64,000 bases of DNA. Origin: Candidatus Sulfopaludibacter sp. SbA3. Its GTDB lineage: Bacteria; Acidobacteriota; Vicinamibacteria; Vicinamibacterales; UBA2999. The stretch covers positions 1 through 64,000 of the forward strand of contig CAMDNQ010000011.1 in NCBI GenBank assembly GCA_945903265.1. The letters are read 5' to 3'. How positions within the stretch are numbered: position 1 is the first letter of the stretch; each line of letters opens with the position of its first letter. Below are positions 6,404 through 19,540 of this stretch, piece after piece. The position numbers and the translations under genes are program-made. The notes beneath the pieces are model-generated. The model was not told where the DNA came from and made no database searches. It saw only the letters and a list, made by a program, of their open reading frames with translations.

Positions 6404-7780
6404 CTATCCCGCCGCGCTCTCTCCCGCGATCCTTCCGAACACCGTTCCAATCGTCATCCCGATGCCCGCGATGTAGCCGCGCGTCAGGATGTTGCCCGCC
6501 ATGATCTCGCCGGCGGCGTAGATGTTCTTCGCGCGCTCGCCGCTCGTGAGGATGACGCGCGCGCGATCGTCGACCTTCACGCCGAGATAGGTGAACGTGA
6601 TGCCGGGACGAAGCGGGTATCCCCAGAACGGCGGCGTGTCGATGCGCTGTGCCCAGTGCGACTTGGGCGGCGTGAGTCCGTCGGTCCGGCAGTCGTCCAG
6701 TGAGCGGTGGTTGAACGTGCCCGGACGGACGGCAGCATTAAACGACGCGACGGTCGCCTCGAGCGAATCGGCTCCGAGCCCGAGTCCCGCCGCAAGCTCG
6801 CGAATCGACGACGCCACGATCGGGGGGAACACCGACGGCATGAACGTGCCGCGCGTCTTCGCGTCGACGATCGAGTACGCAATCTGATCCGGCTGGCGCG
6901 CAATCAGCTTGCCCCAGATGGCGTAGCGCTTCGGCCACGCGTCCTCGCCCTCGTCGTAAAAGCGCTGGCCGTCGCGATTGACGACGATGCCGAAGGGGAG
7001 GGAGTCGAGGCGGGTCACGATGCCGCCGTCGAAGCGGGGGGCGCGCGCGTCGACCGCGATCGCGTGGCAATCGTGCGGGTCGCCCACCGGCTGGGCACCG
7101 GCGTCGAGCAGGAACCTGATCAGCGCGCCCTTGTTGTACGGCGTGCCGCGGATGATGAAGTTGTCGGCCGCGGGACCCCAGATCTCCCGCAGCCAGTCGA
7201 CGTTGGCCTCGAAGCCTCCGGCCGCGACGACGACGCCTTTTGCTTCGACACGCTCGGTGCGGTCGCCAACGCGAACCGTTGCGCCTCTGAACTCGCCATC
7301 CCTTACGTCGAGCGCCGTCACCTCGGCGTCGTACCGCACGTCGATGCCGGCGCGCTCCGCCGCGGCGTAGTAGCTGTTCATCAGCGCCTTGCCGCCGCCG
7401 AGGAAGAACGCGTTCGTGCGCGAGAGGTGCAGGGTGCCGCTGAGCGACGGCTGGAACCTGGCGCCGAACGATCCCATCCAGCCTGGACATGAGGCCGATC
7501 GATCGACGAGCAGCCGCGCCAGCGGTCCGTCGGTCTCGTTGGCGGTGACCCGCATCAGGTCGGCGAGGAACTCGTCCTCCGAATAGGACTCGGTCAGGAC
7601 GTCGGTCGGCGCACCGTGCGCGCATCGCAGGTTGCGCGTGTGGCGGCTGTTGCCGCCGCGGAAGTCGCGCGGCGCGCCCTCCAGCACGATGACGCTGGCC
7701 CCCTTCTGCCGCGCCGTCAGCGCCGCAGATAGCCCGGCGTTGCCACCGCCTATGACAAGAACGTCGAACACGTTGTTCAC
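6404..7780 (-). CDS. tcuA: FAD-dependent dehydrogenase, TcuA (tricarballylate dehydrogenase) type
   Basis: 458-residue flavoprotein of the fumarate reductase/succinate dehydrogenase superfamily, closest in pattern to TcuA, which oxidises tricarballylate to cis-aconitate. Visible features: the Rossmann dinucleotide site VIGGGNAGLSAA (9-20) with E34, the FAD-contacting RGGNSRHTRN (41-50), VVAAGGFEANVDWL near 185-200, and the C-terminal FAD strand TYLGVKVDDRARV...NIYAAGEIMAGN. No signal peptide. The GTG start lies inside a 7-bp repeat array. It is last in the operon tannase - TctC/B - TctA - TcuA, so its substrate is probably what the transporter brings in. The exact substrate is uncertain. Confidence 0.82.
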   Translation of the reverse strand: MNNVFDVLVIGGGNAGLSAALTARQKGASVIVLEGAPRDFRGGNSRHTRNLRCAHGAPTDVLTESYSEDEFLADLMRVTANETDGPLARLLVDRSASCPGWMGSFGARFQPSLSGTLHLSRTNAFFLGGGKALMNSYYAAAERAGIDVRYDAEVTALDVRDGEFRGATVRVGDRTERVEAKGVVVAAGGFEANVDWLREIWGPAADNFIIRGTPYNKGALIRFLLDAGAQPVGDPHDCHAIAVDARAPRFDGGIVTRLDSLPFGIVVNRDGQRFYDEGEDAWPKRYAIWGKLIARQPDQIAYSIVDAKTRGTFMPSVFPPIVASSIRELAAGLGLGADSLEATVASFNAAVRPGTFNHRSLDDCRTDGLTPPKSHWAQRIDTPPFWGYPLRPGITFTYLGVKVDDRARVILTSGERAKNIYAAGEIMAGNILTRGYIAGIGMTIGTVFGRIAGESAAG

Positions 7781-7826
7781 CCTTCTGAATTCTCGCTTCT
7801 CAGTTCGTGTTCACGTTCGAGGTTCG
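7776..7826. repeat. Heptad repeat array, TTCNNNN type (junction tctA/tcuA)
   Basis: TTC recurs at 7776, 7783, 7790, 7797, 7804, 7810, 7816 and 7823 (steps 7,7,7,7,6,6,7). Read on the minus strand, the array runs from the last codons and stop of tctA into the GTG start of tcuA. Bases 7798-7825 match 55385-55412 at 26 of 28 positions. Confidence 0.8.
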
Positions 7827-9296
7827 ACGGAGAAGCATTGGGCCGAACAGTGTCAGCGCTGCGACGAGCAGGAGAACGGCCGACAGCGGGCGCGTGAAGA
7901 ACACGGACGGATCGCCTTCGCTGATCGCCATCGCGCGGCGGAAGTGTTGCTCGGAGAGCGGGCCGAGAATCAGGCCGAGCACCGCCGGCACGAGCGGAAA
8001 CGCCTTCACGCGCATGGCACAGCCGACGGCACCGACCAGGTACAGGAGGAAGAGATCGAGCATCGAGCGGTTGAGCGTATACGCTCCGAGCGAGGCGAGC
8101 ACCAGGATGCCGCCGAAGAGCAGCGGCCGCGGCACGAGCATCACGCGCGCCCAGACGCCGGCCAGCGGCAGGTTGAGGATCAGCAGCATCACGTTGCCGA
8201 TGTAGAGACTCGCGATGAGCGTCCAGACGAGATCCGGCCGCGTGGAAAACAGGAGCGGGCCCGGCTGCAGCCCGTACTGCTGGAACGCCGCAAGCATGAC
8301 CGCCGCAGTGGCAGACGACGGCAGGCCCAGCGTGAGGAGCGGCACGAGCACGCCGGCCGCGGCCGCGTTGTTCGCCGCCTCGGGTCCCGCCACGCCCTCG
8401 ATGGCGCCCTTGCCGAACTCCTCCGGGTGATCGCTGAGCCGCTTTTCGGTGAGATACGACAGGAACGTCGGGATGACGGTGCCGCCCGCCGGCAGCACGC
8501 CGAGCGGAAACCCGATCGCGGTGCCACGCAGCCACGGTTTCCAGGAGCGCCGCCACTCCTCGCGGTTCATGCCGGTGAAGTCGTGCAGCGTCACCATCTC
8601 GAATTGCTGCCGTCCGTAGCTCCAGGCCTGGTACAGCGTCTCCCCCACCGCGAAGAGACCAATCACGAGGATGACGACATCGATGCCGTCGAGGAGCTGC
8701 GGGATGCCAAAGGAAAAGCGCGCGTCGCCGGTAAGGGGATCGATCCCGATGAGGCCGAGCGCCAGCCCCATGAACAGGCTGAAGAGCCCCCGCGTCAGCG
8801 AGGTGCCGAGCAGGGCCGACACCGCCGTGAAGGCCAGGATGGTCAGCGCGAAGTACTCGGCCGGCCCGAACCGCAGCGCGACCGACGCGAGCATCGGCGC
8901 GAAGAACGTCAGCAGAATCGCCGACAGCGTGCCGGCGACGAACGACCCGACGGCGGCGGTCGTGAGCGCGGCGGCGCCGCGACCGTTCTTCGCCATCATG
9001 TGGCCGTCGATGGCGGTCGCGATCGACCCTGTCTCCCCCGGGGTATTCAACAGGATGCTCGTCGTCGATCCGCCGTACATCGCGCCGTAGTAGATGCCGG
9101 CGAACATGATGAACGCGCTCGTCGGCTCGAGGTTGAACGTGACAGGGAGGAGCACGGCTACGGTGAGCGCCGGCCCGATGCCCGGCAGCACGCCGACCGC
9201 GGTGCCGAGGGTGACGCCGACGAGCGCCCACCCGAGGTGCGGCAGCGTCAGCGCGCCGGCGAACCCGTCCCTCAGCGCGGCGAGAATCTCGAACAT
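7800..9296 (-). CDS. tctA: Tripartite tricarboxylate transporter permease TctA
   Basis: 498-residue inner-membrane protein with about 11-12 hydrophobic segments, the large permease of a TTT transporter. Family hallmarks are [17 protein letters not shown] (about 40-56), [15 protein letters not shown] (about 75-90) and [15 protein letters not shown]. It begins 7 bp after the fused TctC-TctB stop codon and is followed by tcuA, so all three are coexpressed. Its last residues (SNVNTN) are encoded within the heptad repeat. TTT systems import citrate, tricarballylate, or aromatic acids such as terephthalate; the cargo here is not determined. Confidence 0.93.
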
Positions 9297-9303
9297 CAGG
9301 GGA

Positions 9304-10647
9304 TCAGATCAGGCCGGCGAGCACGCCGGCGGGGAGCTGCAGGTCAAGCACGCGGCCGAACAGGAGGAACGCGCTGACGGAGACGGCGACGGCAAAGAGC
9401 GCGTCGCGGACCGGATGGCGCGGGTCGAAGGCGCGGGCGACACACCAGAAGAGGGCGACGGAGGCGATGATGAAGCCGCCGGTTTCGGCGAGGAGCAGGT
9501 TCAGGAGGATGCCGGCGGCGATGAGGACGACGGGGCGCCAGTGGGTGGTGGTCGGCGAGTCGGCGGTCGGCGGGTCCGCAGCTCGCTGGCTTCGCTTCTC
9601 GCCGCGGAGCCGCCCTACGTACGACAGGACGCCGAACAGCGCCAGGCCGCCGAGGATGACGGCCGGATATGCGGCGGAGGCGTTCAGCGACGCGTCCTCC
9701 TCGTCGCCACCGAATTGCGTGAGGATGTTCTGAACGCGGCGCTCTTCGCTGGCAACGAACCGGAGGAACTCCGGGCCGGCGAGATAGCGATCGATCCAGC
9801 GGAACTTCACGAGCGCGGCCTGCCATTCCGGCGACGCGACGAGCGACGCGACGGCGGCGTCCATGCGCTCGCGGTCGGCGGCGCTGAGGCCGGGCGGGCC
9901 GACCACCGAGCGCCAGTTTTCGAACTCGACGTCCACGCCCTGCTCGCGGAGCGTGGGAATGTCGAGACCCGGCAGCCGCTCTCCGCTCGAAATGGCCAGC
10001 GCGCGGACCGTTCCGGCTTCGATCTGCGGCGCGAACTCGGCAAGGCCGTTGATCCCGACCGACACCTGTCCGCCGAGAATCGCCGAGAGCGACTCTCCTC
10101 CCCCCGAGAAGGCGATGTAGTTGACGCGGCGGGGCGCGACGCCGAGCGCGTCGGCAATCAGCCCGGCAAGAATCTGGTCGCTGCCGCCGGCCGATCCGCC
10201 ACCCCATGAAATGGCCTCGGGCCGCGCCCGGAACGCGCGGGTGAAGTCGCCCAGCGTCCTGAACGGCGAGTTCGCGGGGACCGTGAGCACCTCGTACTCG
10301 CCGGTCAACCGGGCAATGGGCGTGACGTTGGCGAACGTCACCTCGGACTGCTGTGTGACGATCGCGCCGAGCATGATGAGGCCGTTGACCATCACCGCGT
10401 CGCCGTTGCCCCGCTCGGCGCCGATGAAGCGGGCGAGACCGATCAGGCCGGCGGCGCCGGGGATGTTTTCGACGGAGACCGTCCGCGCCAGTCCGGTCTG
10501 CTGCACCACCTGCTGCATGACGCGCGCGGTCTGGTCCCAGCCGCCGCCGGGGGCGGCGGGTGCAATGATGCGGAGTTGATCGTAGGTTTGCGCGCCCGCC
10601 GCAACCGGCAGGAATGCGAGAAGCAGGACGCCTACGGCGCGGCGCAC
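9304..10647 (-). CDS. Fused TTT solute-binding protein (TctC) and small membrane subunit (TctB)
   Basis: 447 residues from a GTG start. Residues 1-20 form a signal peptide ([14 protein letters not shown]). About 22-312 is a Bug/TctC periplasmic binding domain ([42 protein letters not shown]). About 325-447 carries four hydrophobic helices of TctB type ([67 protein letters not shown]). TctC and TctB are normally separate proteins, so this fusion tethers the receptor to the membrane subunit. The start overlaps the tannase 3' end by 16 bp, implying translational coupling. Confidence 0.88.
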
Positions 10648-12104
10648 GCGAAGTTCTCGGCCTGATCGATGCTGCCGGTGCCCTTGTATTTCGCGAGCTG
10701 CGGGAACGGGCAGAGCGGACGCGTCCGCGTGACCGTGCCGTTCTCGACACGCGAGGCGAGGATCGACGCCGGCGCCTTCCCGTGCTCACGCCACTGCTCG
10801 AGCGCCGACAGCATGTCGAACTCGTTCGGTCCGCTGCCGCCGCCGCAGTGACCCATGCCCGGCACCATGAACAGCCGCACCGAGTTCTCGACGTCGCGGC
10901 CCATCGCCCTCACCAGCTCGTTGCGGTAGCTGACCGACGAGCGCGGCGGAATGTTCTGATCCTCCCAGCCGTGGAACACGATCATCTTCCCGCCGCGGCT
11001 CACGAACGGCGTGAGGTTCGTCGACGTCGCGCCGAGGACGCCGTTATCGGCTTTGCGGGCCCGCTCGAGATCCCGCGTGATGTCGAGCGTCCGGTAGTCC
11101 CACGCCGGATCCTGAAACACGATGAAGCGGAGCAGGTCGTTGTACATCGGGTGCGGCGTGCTGCCCGACACCGATCCCCAGTGCATCTCGCTTCCGGGCT
11201 CGAGCCCCGTCGAAATTTCCTTGCCGCTGCGGTCGTAGACCGCGCCGTAAATCATCCGCGCCGCGGCAACCTGGGGTTGTGTCAGGCAGTTCGCGCTGTC
11301 GGCGGCCGTACAGGCCATGACGCCTGGGTCGAACCGGCAGGCCGTTGGATCGGCGATGAGGCCGTCCGCGAGCCCATCGGCCGCGTCGCACGCCTTGAGC
11401 GCCGCCTGCCGGATCGCCGGGTACTTAGCCGCCGGGATGAAGCTCTCAGGCGTCTTGTGCGTCGCCTGGATCATCTGGACGGTCTGAAACGCCGCGTCGG
11501 TCCGGTTGTAGCCGGGCGCGCCCGCCACGATGCCGTCGAAGTCCGCTGGATAGCGCTGGGCGGCCATGAACGCCTGGCGGCCGCCGCCGGAGCAGCCGTT
11601 GAAGTACGAGAAGCGCGGCGCCGTGCCGTAGAGCGCCTGCACCGTGGCTTTGCCCTGCACGGCGGTCTCGTGCACCGACCGGTAGCCGAAATCAATCAGC
11701 CGCTCCGGATGGCCCATCGCGAAACTCGCGTCGGAGCCGGTGTGTCCCGTGTCGGTGGACGCGGCCGCGTAGCCGCGTTTCAGCGCGTCGGTGAGTGCGG
11801 CGTACTGAATCGATCCGCCCCAGGCGCCGTTGCCGACCGCGAGGAACTTGCCGTTCCATCCGGTAAGCGGCAGCCAGATCTCGGATTTGATGTCGGAATC
11901 GCTGGAGGGCTTGATGGTCAGCGCGACGCGGCAGGATGCGGGCAGGCCGGCATCAGCGGACTTGACCGTCGCGCTCGTGACTGTTGTGTGCGGCAGCGTG
12001 AGCGACGCCGCGAGGCGTTCGCACGCTGCGGAGGGAACTGGCGCCTGTTGGGCCAGTACGGTCGCGGGCACGAGAACGAAGCTGAGAAGGGCTACGAGTC
12101 TCAT
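10632..12104 (-). CDS. Tannase/feruloyl esterase family secreted esterase
   Basis: 490 residues with a signal peptide (MRLVALLSFVLVPATVLAQ). Alpha/beta-hydrolase of the tannase/FaeB/MHETase family, which cleaves esters of aromatic acids. The diagnostic CS-D-HC arrangement is complete: C171-S172 in FNGCSGGGRQ, D381 in GWEDQNIPP, and H418-C419 in PGMGHCGGG, with the two Cys positioned for a disulfide linking Ser and His elements. It is first in an operon with a TTT transporter and a flavoprotein, suggesting that the released acid is imported and oxidised. Substrate (gallate, ferulate, phthalate-type or other ester) cannot be told from sequence. Confidence 0.9.
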   Translation of the reverse strand: MRLVALLSFVLVPATVLAQQAPVPSAACERLAASLTLPHTTVTSATVKSADAGLPASCRVALTIKPSSDSDIKSEIWLPLTGWNGKFLAVGNGAWGGSIQYAALTDALKRGYAAASTDTGHTGSDASFAMGHPERLIDFGYRSVHETAVQGKATVQALYGTAPRFSYFNGCSGGGRQAFMAAQRYPADFDGIVAGAPGYNRTDAAFQTVQMIQATHKTPESFIPAAKYPAIRQAALKACDAADGLADGLIADPTACRFDPGVMACTAADSANCLTQPQVAAARMIYGAVYDRSGKEISTGLEPGSEMHWGSVSGSTPHPMYNDLLRFIVFQDPAWDYRTLDITRDLERARKADNGVLGATSTNLTPFVSRGGKMIVFHGWEDQNIPPRSSVSYRNELVRAMGRDVENSVRLFMVPGMGHCGGGSGPNEFDMLSALEQWREHGKAPASILASRVENGTVTRTRPLCPFPQLAKYKGTGSIDQAENFACAAP

Positions 12105-17186: not shown

Positions 17187-19136
17187 ATGAGCCCGAAGCG
17201 TCATCCCCCTGCATCACCCGAACGACGGACATTCCTGCAGAAGGGCGCGCTGGCCGGGGCGGCGCTCGTCGGTGCACCCGCGGCCGCCGCAGCGCAGGCT
17301 GCAGCGCCACCCGCCGCGGCCCAGGCGCCGCCGCCGCTGACGCACGCGGTCGAATCCGCAGAGCCTGAAGACATCCAGGTCCTCGGCGACAACGAGCGCG
17401 CCGGCTCCGACTACATGATCGACGTCTTCAAGTCGCTCGGGTTCGAGTATTTCTTCGCCAATCCTGGATCCAGTTTCCGCGGGCTGCACGAGTCGCTGCT
17501 CAATCACGGCGGCAACACGGCGCCCGAGCTCATCACGTGCACGCACGAAGAGAACTCGGTCGCGATGGCGCACGGCTTCTACAAGGTGGACGGCAAGCCG
17601 ATCGCCGTCATGGCGCACGGCACCGTCGGCCTGCAGCACGCGTCGATGGCCATCTACAACGCCTGGTGCGACCGCGTGCCCGTCTACGTGATCCTCGGCA
17701 ACCACGCGGACGCCGCGATCCGCCGCGGCGCAGAGTGGTATCACGGCGTGCAGGACGCCGCCGCGATGGTCCGCGACTATACCAAGTGGGACGACTTCCC
17801 TTGGTCGCTCACGCACTTCGCCGAATCAGCCGTCCGCGCGTACCAAATTGCGATGACGCCGCCAATGGCGCCCGTCGTCATGGTGCTCGACGGCGGTCTC
17901 CAGGAACATCCGATCTCGAGGAACGAGCGGCTCCCGATTCCCCGGCTGACGATGCCCGTGCCGCCCGCGGGCGAGCGCGGCGCGGTGGAGGAAGTGGCGA
18001 AGATGCTCGTCGCCGCCGAGAATCCTGTGTTCGTGGCGGACCGCATGGCGCGGACGCCAAACGGGATGAAGATGCTCGTCGAGCTCGCCGAAATATTGCA
18101 GGCGGGCGTCATCGATCAGGGCAGCCGCATGAACTTCCCGTCGCGCCACCCACTGAACCAGACGCAGCGGGCGCGCGCGGCGGTGGTGGACGCCGACGTC
18201 ATCCTCGGTCTCGAGCTCGTGGACTACTGGGGCACCGTCAACGCGTTGCGCGATCAGCTGCACCGCACCACGCGCCGCGTCGCGAAGACGACGGCCAAGC
18301 TCATTTCGATTTCAACCGGCGACCTCTATATCAAGGCCAACTACCAGGACTTCCGTCGTCTGCAGGACGTCGACCTCGCCATCGCCGCGGACCCGGAGGC
18401 GACGCTCCCGGCGCTCATCGATGCGGTGAGACGACTGGTCACCGGCGACCGCCAGCGCGTCTTCCAGGAGCGGGGCGCGAAGCTGGCGCAGGCGAGCCGC
18501 GCGGCCGCAGAAGCGAATCGCGTGGCGGCGACATTCGCGTGGGACGCGAGTCCCGTGAGCGTGGCCCGGCTCTGCGCCGAAGTCTGGAACCAGATCCGGA
18601 ACGAGGACTGGTCGCTCGTCTCGAGCTACTACAGCAACGACCAGACGAACTGGCCGCGGCGGCTCTGGAACTTCGACAAGCCGTACCAGTGGCTCGGCCA
18701 CGCGGGCGGCGGCGGCATCGGCTACGGCGCGCCGGCATCGGTGGGCGCGGCGCTCGCGAACAAGAAGCACGGCCGCCTCTCGGTGGCCATCCAGACGGAC
18801 GGCGACATGATGTATTCGCCCGGCGTGCTCTGGACCGCCGCGCATCACAAGATTCCGCTGCTGAGCGTGATGAACAACAACCGGCAGTACCACCAGGAAG
18901 TGATGCACGTCCAGAAGATGTGCAACGCGCGGAACCGCGGCATCGATCGCGGCGAGATCGGCAGCCAGCTGTCGAATCCGAACATCGATTTCGCGAAGCT
19001 CGCGCAGTCGATGGGCGTGTATGCCGAGGGTCCCATCAGCAATCCGAACGAGCTGGGTCCCGCACTGGCCCGCGCGATCGCCGTCGTCAAGAAGGGCGAG
19101 CCGGCCGTTGTCGACGTCGCCACACAAGTCAGATGA
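17187..19136 (+). CDS. Tat-exported thiamine-diphosphate-dependent enzyme
   Basis: 649 residues. Acetolactate synthase/benzoylformate decarboxylase-fold protein with three domains after an unusual leader. The N terminus has a twin-arginine signal (ERRTFLQKGALAGAALVG, 12-29) and an Ala/Pro linker to about 50. The PYR domain has the cofactor-activating Glu in THEENSVAMAHG (E121). The central TPP_M region is about 250-400. The PP domain carries the Mg/ThDP motif TDGDMMYSPG...SVMNNN near 565-595. Tat export fits folding with a bound cofactor. The ATGA overlap with the cytochrome gene shows translational coupling. Substrate unknown; a 2-oxoacid decarboxylase or lyase feeding electrons to the cytochrome is inference. 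No obvious Shine-Dalgarno. Confidence 0.85.
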   Translation: MSPKRHPPASPERRTFLQKGALAGAALVGAPAAAAAQAAAPPAAAQAPPPLTHAVESAEPEDIQVLGDNERAGSDYMIDVFKSLGFEYFFANPGSSFRGLHESLLNHGGNTAPELITCTHEENSVAMAHGFYKVDGKPIAVMAHGTVGLQHASMAIYNAWCDRVPVYVILGNHADAAIRRGAEWYHGVQDAAAMVRDYTKWDDFPWSLTHFAESAVRAYQIAMTPPMAPVVMVLDGGLQEHPISRNERLPIPRLTMPVPPAGERGAVEEVAKMLVAAENPVFVADRMARTPNGMKMLVELAEILQAGVIDQGSRMNFPSRHPLNQTQRARAAVVDADVILGLELVDYWGTVNALRDQLHRTTRRVAKTTAKLISISTGDLYIKANYQDFRRLQDVDLAIAADPEATLPALIDAVRRLVTGDRQRVFQERGAKLAQASRAAAEANRVAATFAWDASPVSVARLCAEVWNQIRNEDWSLVSSYYSNDQTNWPRRLWNFDKPYQWLGHAGGGGIGYGAPASVGAALANKKHGRLSVAIQTDGDMMYSPGVLWTAAHHKIPLLSVMNNNRQYHQEVMHVQKMCNARNRGIDRGEIGSQLSNPNIDFAKLAQSMGVYAEGPISNPNELGPALARAIAVVKKGEPAVVDVATQVR

Positions 19137-19540
19137 GAAACCTGCCTCGTCGCAGAGCGCATGCTTCAGCGTGCGCGTTGCTCGCGGTGACACTGACAAC
19201 AATCGGCATTGCGCAGGCGCAGAACGCGCCCGCGCCGAAGCCGGCCGCACCGGCGGCCGCCCCCGCCGGCAAGATTGACAACGGCGGCGTGCTGTTCAAG
19301 AAGGTCGGCTGCTATCAGTGCCACGCGAACGAGGCACAAGGCGGCCTGTCGGGCCCGCGTATCGGCCCGGCGCTATTCCCCTGGGCACGCTTCCTGGACT
19401 ACACCCGCAAGCCGAGCGGCGAGATGCCGCCCTACTCGGCGAAGGTCCTCACCGACCAGGATGTCGCCGACATCTACGCCTGGGTCAACGCCCGGCCGCG
19501 TCCACCCGCCGTCAATTCCCTGCCGCAGCTGGCGCCGTAG
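19133..19540 (+). CDS. Secreted monoheme cytochrome c
   Basis: 135 residues; the ATG at 19133 overlaps the stop codon of the ThDP enzyme (ATGA). Signal peptide about 1-30 (ending IAQAQ), Ala/Pro-rich linker, then a small cytochrome c domain with heme motif CYQCH (C60, C63, H64), GPRIGP, and a plausible axial Met M98 in SGEMPPY. Probably a periplasmic electron carrier serving the coupled enzyme. Codons 7-14 of the leader (RRAHASAC) are encoded by a REP-like palindrome (19152-19176). Confidence 0.85.
   Translation: MRNLPRRRAHASACALLAVTLTTIGIAQAQNAPAPKPAAPAAAPAGKIDNGGVLFKKVGCYQCHANEAQGGLSGPRIGPALFPWARFLDYTRKPSGEMPPYSAKVLTDQDVADIYAWVNARPRPPAVNSLPQLAP
19152..19176. repeat. REP-like palindrome inside cytochrome leader
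   Basis: The stem GCGCATGCT/AGCGTGCGC (one G-T pair) with CTTCAG at the tip lies at 19157-19176, preceded by GCAGA. It matches the unit at 39871-39894 almost throughout, but here it is translated as part of the signal peptide. Confidence 0.65.

Follow-up and report, generated by a model that had tools for sequence, protein, structure and literature searches.

In textbooks, thiamine diphosphate (ThDP) chemistry belongs to the cytosol or the mitochondrion, and the redox partners known for it are FAD, lipoyl groups, Fe-S clusters or NAD. In the window (the whole 64,000-nucleotide stretch of DNA analysed here), a gene for a ThDP enzyme begins with what reads as a twin-arginine (Tat) export leader and runs directly into a gene for a c-type cytochrome. 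Is this enzyme exported, is the cytochrome its dedicated partner, and what would such a pair do outside the cytoplasm?

A putatively exported ThDP enzyme and its neighbouring cytochrome

The enzyme gene (P0001) starts with ATG at 17187 and ends with TGA at 19134-19136. A check of the frame confirmed the twin-arginine leader that a sequence-only reading of this locus had reported (MSPKRHPPASPERRTFLQKGALAGAALVG; also written MSPKRHPPASPERRTFLQKGALAGAALVGAPAAAAAQ). The leader has the RRxF[LIMF] pattern and the hydrophobic stretch of Tat substrates, and its region has low pLDDT in a 15-sequence AF2 model, as leaders should give. The three TPP_enzyme domains (N, M, and C) each score above the Pfam cutoff. 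The features of both genes are listed in Table 1.

Table 1 Features of the enzyme-cytochrome pair in the window
Feature	Position	Strand	Basis or remark
Tat-leader ThDP enzyme P0001, 649 aa	17187..19136	+	PF02776, PF00205, PF02775; fold; family alignments
Twin-arginine leader: RRTFLQ, hydrophobic stretch, Ala-rich region	17187..17297	+	End approximate
Codon of catalytic Glu E121, position of BFD E47	17547..17549	+	Invariant in Tat clade; common to cytosolic group; BFD alignment
Codon of H144, aligned with BFD His70	17616..17618	+	BFD alignment; invariant
ThDP/Mg site motif D538-G-D...N564-N565	18798..18881	+	Invariant in family alignments
Active-site loop H569-Q-E571	18891..18899	+	Alignment of Tat clade and cytosolic group
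ATGA overlap of enzyme stop and cytochrome start	19133..19136	+	Sequence
Class I monoheme cytochrome c P0002, 135 aa, predicted Sec export	19133..19540	+	PF13442
Heme c binding motif CYQCH	19310..19324	+	C, C, and H invariant in cytochrome subfamily
Met98 (GEMPPY), probable axial heme ligand	19424..19426	+	Invariant in cytochrome subfamily

Membership in the ThDP superfamily was judged by a catalytic Glu together with the metal-binding motif GDG-X24,27-N. E121, D538, G539, and N565 are invariant in the family alignments, which upholds the earlier identification of E121 as the conserved ThDP Glu. The metal motif had been placed at GDMMYSPG; a ThDP site is indeed present, but it lies at T537-D538-G539-D540...N564-N565, with D538 and N565 as the ligands on reading the sequence. 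The first Gly of GDG is replaced by Thr in P0001, at a position that varies within the Tat-ThDP family; PMC3534367 gives Gly here in 98% of the superfamily. S95, placed by hand in the alignment with benzoylformate decarboxylase (BFD), matches Ser26 of that enzyme, and E571 falls at the position of yeast PDC E477 (hand alignment; numbering background from PMC3534367). H554, H569, E571, and M573 are conserved in the Tat-leader clade described below and differ in its cytosolic relatives; H569 and E571 are invariant in the clade, and the cytosolic group has mostly Tyr and Asp, respectively.

P0001 has four Cys and no CxxC pair, so it lacks the Fe-S cysteine motifs of 2-oxoacid:ferredoxin oxidoreductase and contains no Fe-S cluster motif that could act as an internal acceptor. 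The oxidising members of the ThDP fold (POX and PoxB) use FAD, and FAD may serve as an electron relay in P0001, in which the central domain PF00205, the site of FAD binding in those oxidases, is present.

The downstream protein, P0002, is a class I c-type cytochrome by its CXXCH motif, its distal Met, and its match to PF13442 (Cytochrome_CBB3; 37.4 bits, cutoff 27), and it has a predicted Sec-type signal peptide of approximately 28-29 aa. In the alignment, its subfamily can be told by the Met ligand, by an Arg present in every member, and by its own conserved C-terminal tail around x-I-P-L-L. The ATGA overlap noted earlier is present in the window pair but is not widely conserved, since no more than 15 of 98 pairs allow an overlapping cytochrome start. 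The start lies no more than 80 nt from the enzyme stop in 95 of these 98.

Distribution of the pair

Loss of the twin-arginine leader or of the cytochrome neighbour in most orthologues had been named beforehand as grounds for giving up the idea of an exported pair. We scanned one genome per species and recovered at least 582 relatives of the enzyme; the RR leader is present in 78 of the best 80 of these, and the other two are a frameshifted gene and a contig-truncated gene. In a wider sample, extended with homologues from Acidobacteriota, Hyphomicrobiales, and plasmids, the homologues with at least 42% identity to the window protein, sampled from Acidobacteriota and Pseudomonadota, fall into a single clade, and the RR leader is present in essentially all of them. 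Among the 104 Tat-clade members with at least 450 nt of downstream sequence, a same-strand CXXCH gene follows in 96, and eight are without an adjacent cytochrome. The co-occurrence proposed from the single locus thus extends across genomes, and the orthologues also keep the ThDP site (Glu and metal ligands). Cytosolic homologues with up to approximately 40% identity have neither the leader (0/27) nor a cytochrome neighbour (0/27). The contrast between 96/104 and 0/27 rules out both chance co-location of the two genes and an oddity of this one locus. In a quick tree, the leader-bearing sequences all group together to the exclusion of the cytosolic relatives (support 93); a careful tree supports the Tat clade at 100/98 for a 17-member sample.

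The genome of the window also contains one of the cytosolic homologues, on contig C4 (L019:7267-10065, +). It is 40% identical and lacks leader and cytochrome; by eye, its neighbours are an ABC transporter ATPase gene directly in front and a 3-hydroxyisobutyrate-dehydrogenase-like gene behind.

The Tat clade is patchily distributed. Matches at E 1e-100 are present in 11 of 297 sampled Acidobacteriota, and by our own count clade-level matches are present in 39 of 297 genomes of the family of Bradyrhizobium acaciae. One 2 Mb genome (G298) has at least five Tat-type paralogues. Cultured carriers include Bradyrhizobium acaciae and a plasmid of Caballeronia zhejiangensis, on which the two genes carry no annotation beyond 'thiamine pyrophosphate-binding protein' and 'c-type cytochrome'. 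On a Novosphingobium plasmid (L114:10734-11443, +), a second small c-type cytochrome gene follows the pair, abutting or overlapping the first cytochrome gene.

Pairing of enzyme and cytochrome

Enzyme and cytochrome distances across 98 pairs are correlated (Mantel r 0.71, against at most 0.20 in 500 permutations), a correlation to which shared ancestry contributes. The window cytochrome is 52-71% identical to the cytochromes of orthologues, compared with 49% to the cytochrome of the paralogue in the same genome. These identities indicate that the two paralogous pairs in the window genome did not mix partners. A profile of the cytochrome subfamily gave 23 matches above 100 bits in 16 genomes, 21 of which are beside a Tat-ThDP gene. 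Of the two unpaired matches, one is a true orphan in a genome (G289) that holds two Tat-ThDP genes without a cytochrome of their own. The other sits at the edge of a contig in G298; a Tat-ThDP gene of this genome is likewise cut off by a contig edge, which makes an assembly break likely. In three control genomes that lack the Tat enzyme, no match to the profile exceeds 40 bits. The cytochrome core is basic (median pI 8.7) and the enzyme mildly acidic (6.4), which is compatible with docking but counts as weak evidence.

The conservation of the active site bears on whether the protein catalyses a reaction at all. An exported protein that binds or scavenges ThDP without catalysis would keep the residues of the ThDP site, as seen here, and would fit a family to which no reaction is assigned. 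Yet the family, divergent as it is, keeps the catalytic Glu, the His, E571, and H569 without exception, although binding alone would require none of them, and the protein has a dedicated redox partner; we regard a purely binding role as very improbable.

A second putatively exported family

The genome of the window encodes a second ThDP protein with a Tat leader, approximately 25% identical to P0001 (contig C4:170664-172562, L020/L218; L020:10164-12062, +). Its family was examined through the loci L218-L225. Sequence upstream of the second-family gene is available in six Acidobacteriota genomes, and each of these encodes a small c-type cytochrome, of another type than that of the first family, immediately upstream. 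In a distant Hyphomicrobiales relative, the leader is Tat-like and the stop overlaps a gene for a diheme cytochrome. A search of plasmids for the second family gave no match.

In the careful tree, the two Tat-ThDP families are apart and each is nearer to leaderless proteins. A common clade of both was rejected by the AU test (p-AU 2.5e-58, to be read qualitatively given the long branches). The pairing of enzyme and cytochrome therefore apparently arose twice, and such a repeated origin speaks for a ThDP enzyme and a cytochrome c acting together outside the cytoplasm.

A possible periplasmic electron route

With moderate confidence, we interpret the pair as a ThDP dehydrogenase of the periplasm together with its own cytochrome c, which would accept electrons from the ThDP-bound intermediate. 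At the level of sequence, this reading draws on the leader, the ThDP site, the sites of the heme and its Met ligand, and the dedicated, co-diverging pairing. The enzyme would take up ThDP and Mg and fold in the cytoplasm, and, as its leader suggests, would be exported folded by Tat. The Tat system carries folded, cofactor-loaded proteins, which fits ThDP as a cofactor made in the cytoplasm. In the periplasm, the ThDP ylide would attack a 2-oxo acid, an aldehyde, or an alpha-diketone. The dedicated cytochrome would then oxidise the resulting carbanion/enamine, probably by taking one electron at a time in two steps, and the presumed oxidative direction would give a carboxylate, or an acyl-ThDP that is then hydrolysed. 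The reduced cytochrome would feed the respiratory chain.

Ferricyanide and other one-electron acceptors can oxidise the ThDP-bound carbanion of this class of enzymes; our literature search on this reaction found no report. A carbanion oxidisable in one-electron steps, with a dedicated cytochrome c as the natural equivalent of such an acceptor, favours a periplasmic dehydrogenase of 2-oxo acids, aldehydes, or diketones. If electrons do pass to the cytochrome, the pair would represent a new class of ThDP oxidoreductase. We would give about even chances to the broader claim of a new class of exported ThDP oxidoreductases in which a dedicated c-type cytochrome oxidises the carbanion directly (without flavin, lipoyl group, or Fe-S cluster), with periplasmic oxidation of 2-oxo acids, aldehydes, or diketones, at least two independent inventions, and several Tat-type paralogues in single genomes.

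Fold and alternative reactions

An AF2 model built from 94 family members has a pLDDT of 91.2 and replaced the 15-sequence model (69.6). It has the shared fold of the ThDP-dependent decarboxylase superfamily (PDC/BFD/ALS type). Among known structures it is most similar to benzoylformate decarboxylases (Z 36.8), closely followed by acetolactate synthases, and the top Foldseek match by E-value is glyoxylate carboligase. Since the fold includes carboligases such as the latter, the enzyme might carry out a carboligation or a reductive reaction, with the cytochrome as its electron donor or as a sensor or structural subunit. We consider this improbable, because a Met-ligated class I cytochrome typically has a high potential and is then a poor reductant. 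Moreover, the catalytic Glu is invariant in the Tat clade, whereas PMC3534367 describes glyoxylate carboligase as lacking it.

The main alternative to a dehydrogenase is a non-oxidative decarboxylase or lyase, similar to benzoylformate decarboxylase or benzaldehyde lyase, that releases an aldehyde in the periplasm, with the cytochrome serving a separate dehydrogenase that oxidises the aldehyde. The closest folds are decarboxylases and lyases, and the BFD-type Ser and His and the PDC-type Glu position are present. Some gene contexts point the same way. In L200 (7560-10686, +), the pair is followed in one apparent operon by genes for a 2Fe-2S subunit and a molybdopterin aldehyde-oxidase-like subunit (Pfam), and by eye a similar Mo-enzyme gene adjoins the pair in L198; the molybdenum enzyme could be the true electron donor at these two loci. 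PQQ-type dehydrogenases are encoded within approximately 10 kb of the pair in 12 loci. Against this, the cytochrome is the constant neighbour and no dehydrogenase is, and the cytochrome subfamily follows the ThDP enzyme rather than any dehydrogenase. We therefore consider a lyase unlikely and continue to favour direct oxidation by the dedicated cytochrome.

Genomic context and possible substrates

Genes for TcuA (tricarballylate dehydrogenase; 694 bits, cutoff 369), TctA, a TctC-TctB fusion, and a tannase/feruloyl esterase lie in a row in the window (6407-12104, -). TcuA-like genes are near five of the closest orthologues, divergent and just upstream in three, and recur only there; tannase genes are present in five loci. 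Elsewhere, the pair is near genes for ring-hydroxylating dioxygenases, UbiX/UbiD, Amidohydro_2 decarboxylase-like proteins, and XDH-type enzymes, with Amidohydro_2, UbiD, and XDH-type genes in a few loci. A search for a conserved neighbour across the loci returned only the cytochrome, and no enrichment was strong enough to name a substrate. Together, these contexts at most suggest catabolism of carboxylic and aromatic acids, probably with different substrates for different paralogues. A derivative of an organic or aromatic acid is the probable kind of substrate.

Other genes of the window lie downstream of the pair. An HpcH/HpaI-type aldolase (PF03328; 23567-24652, +) scores well below the HpaI equivalog cutoff. 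Its frame appears to open with a signal peptide and the protein is possibly exported, which may make it a second usually cytosolic C-C bond enzyme acting outside the cytoplasm. Two small proteins are also encoded, one DUF6152 (PF19649; 25748-26203, +) and one HbpS-like (PF03928; 26172-26744, +); a DUF6152-like gene is also near the pair in L035.

Comparison with known systems

No curated NCBIfam model covers the Tat-clade members tested. The best curated model over the full length of P0001 is PRK08327/NF006203 (thiamine pyrophosphate-requiring protein), for which P0001 is below the equivalog cutoff (265 versus 456; other clade members, 226-265). It is also below the cutoff of the NCBIfam BFD model (PRK07092; 162.5 versus 493 bits). 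Among the open-access papers searched, no title or abstract describes an exported ThDP enzyme coupled to cytochrome c. If the proposed reaction is correct, a large exported clade and a second family would open a new electron route for ThDP enzymes and, in abundant soil bacteria, give carbon-derived electrons a new way into respiration from the periplasm. Under this reading, hundreds of poorly annotated 'thiamine pyrophosphate-binding protein' and 'c-type cytochrome' genes gain a testable joint function.

In structure, the closest known enzymes are benzoylformate and 4-hydroxybenzoylformate decarboxylases (PDB 1bfd, 4q9d, and 6qsi), which share the fold (Z ~36.8, 24% identity), the catalytic Glu, and the His and Ser at the His70 and Ser26 positions. 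BFD-type enzymes work in the cytosol, catalyse non-oxidative reactions, and are not known to have a cytochrome partner. Identity is approximately 33-40% for the cytosolic sister clade (L019, L180-L193), which differs from the Tat clade in the absence of leader and cytochrome. In the proposed reaction, the pair resembles PoxB and POX, in which the ThDP intermediate is oxidised to a carboxylate and, for PoxB, electrons can reach respiration. Those enzymes use FAD, with quinone or O2 as acceptors, and face the cytoplasm; to our knowledge, no member of the pyruvate oxidases is exported or linked to cytochrome c. In gene arrangement, close parallels include SorAB sulfite dehydrogenase and p-cresol methylhydroxylase, in which an exported catalytic subunit is encoded with a dedicated class I cytochrome acceptor; the cytochrome of the latter is a weak match (E 0.12). 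In contrast to the ThDP pair, these systems use molybdenum or flavin chemistry. The enzyme belongs to a known superfamily, in which its predicted export and its pairing with a cytochrome set it apart.
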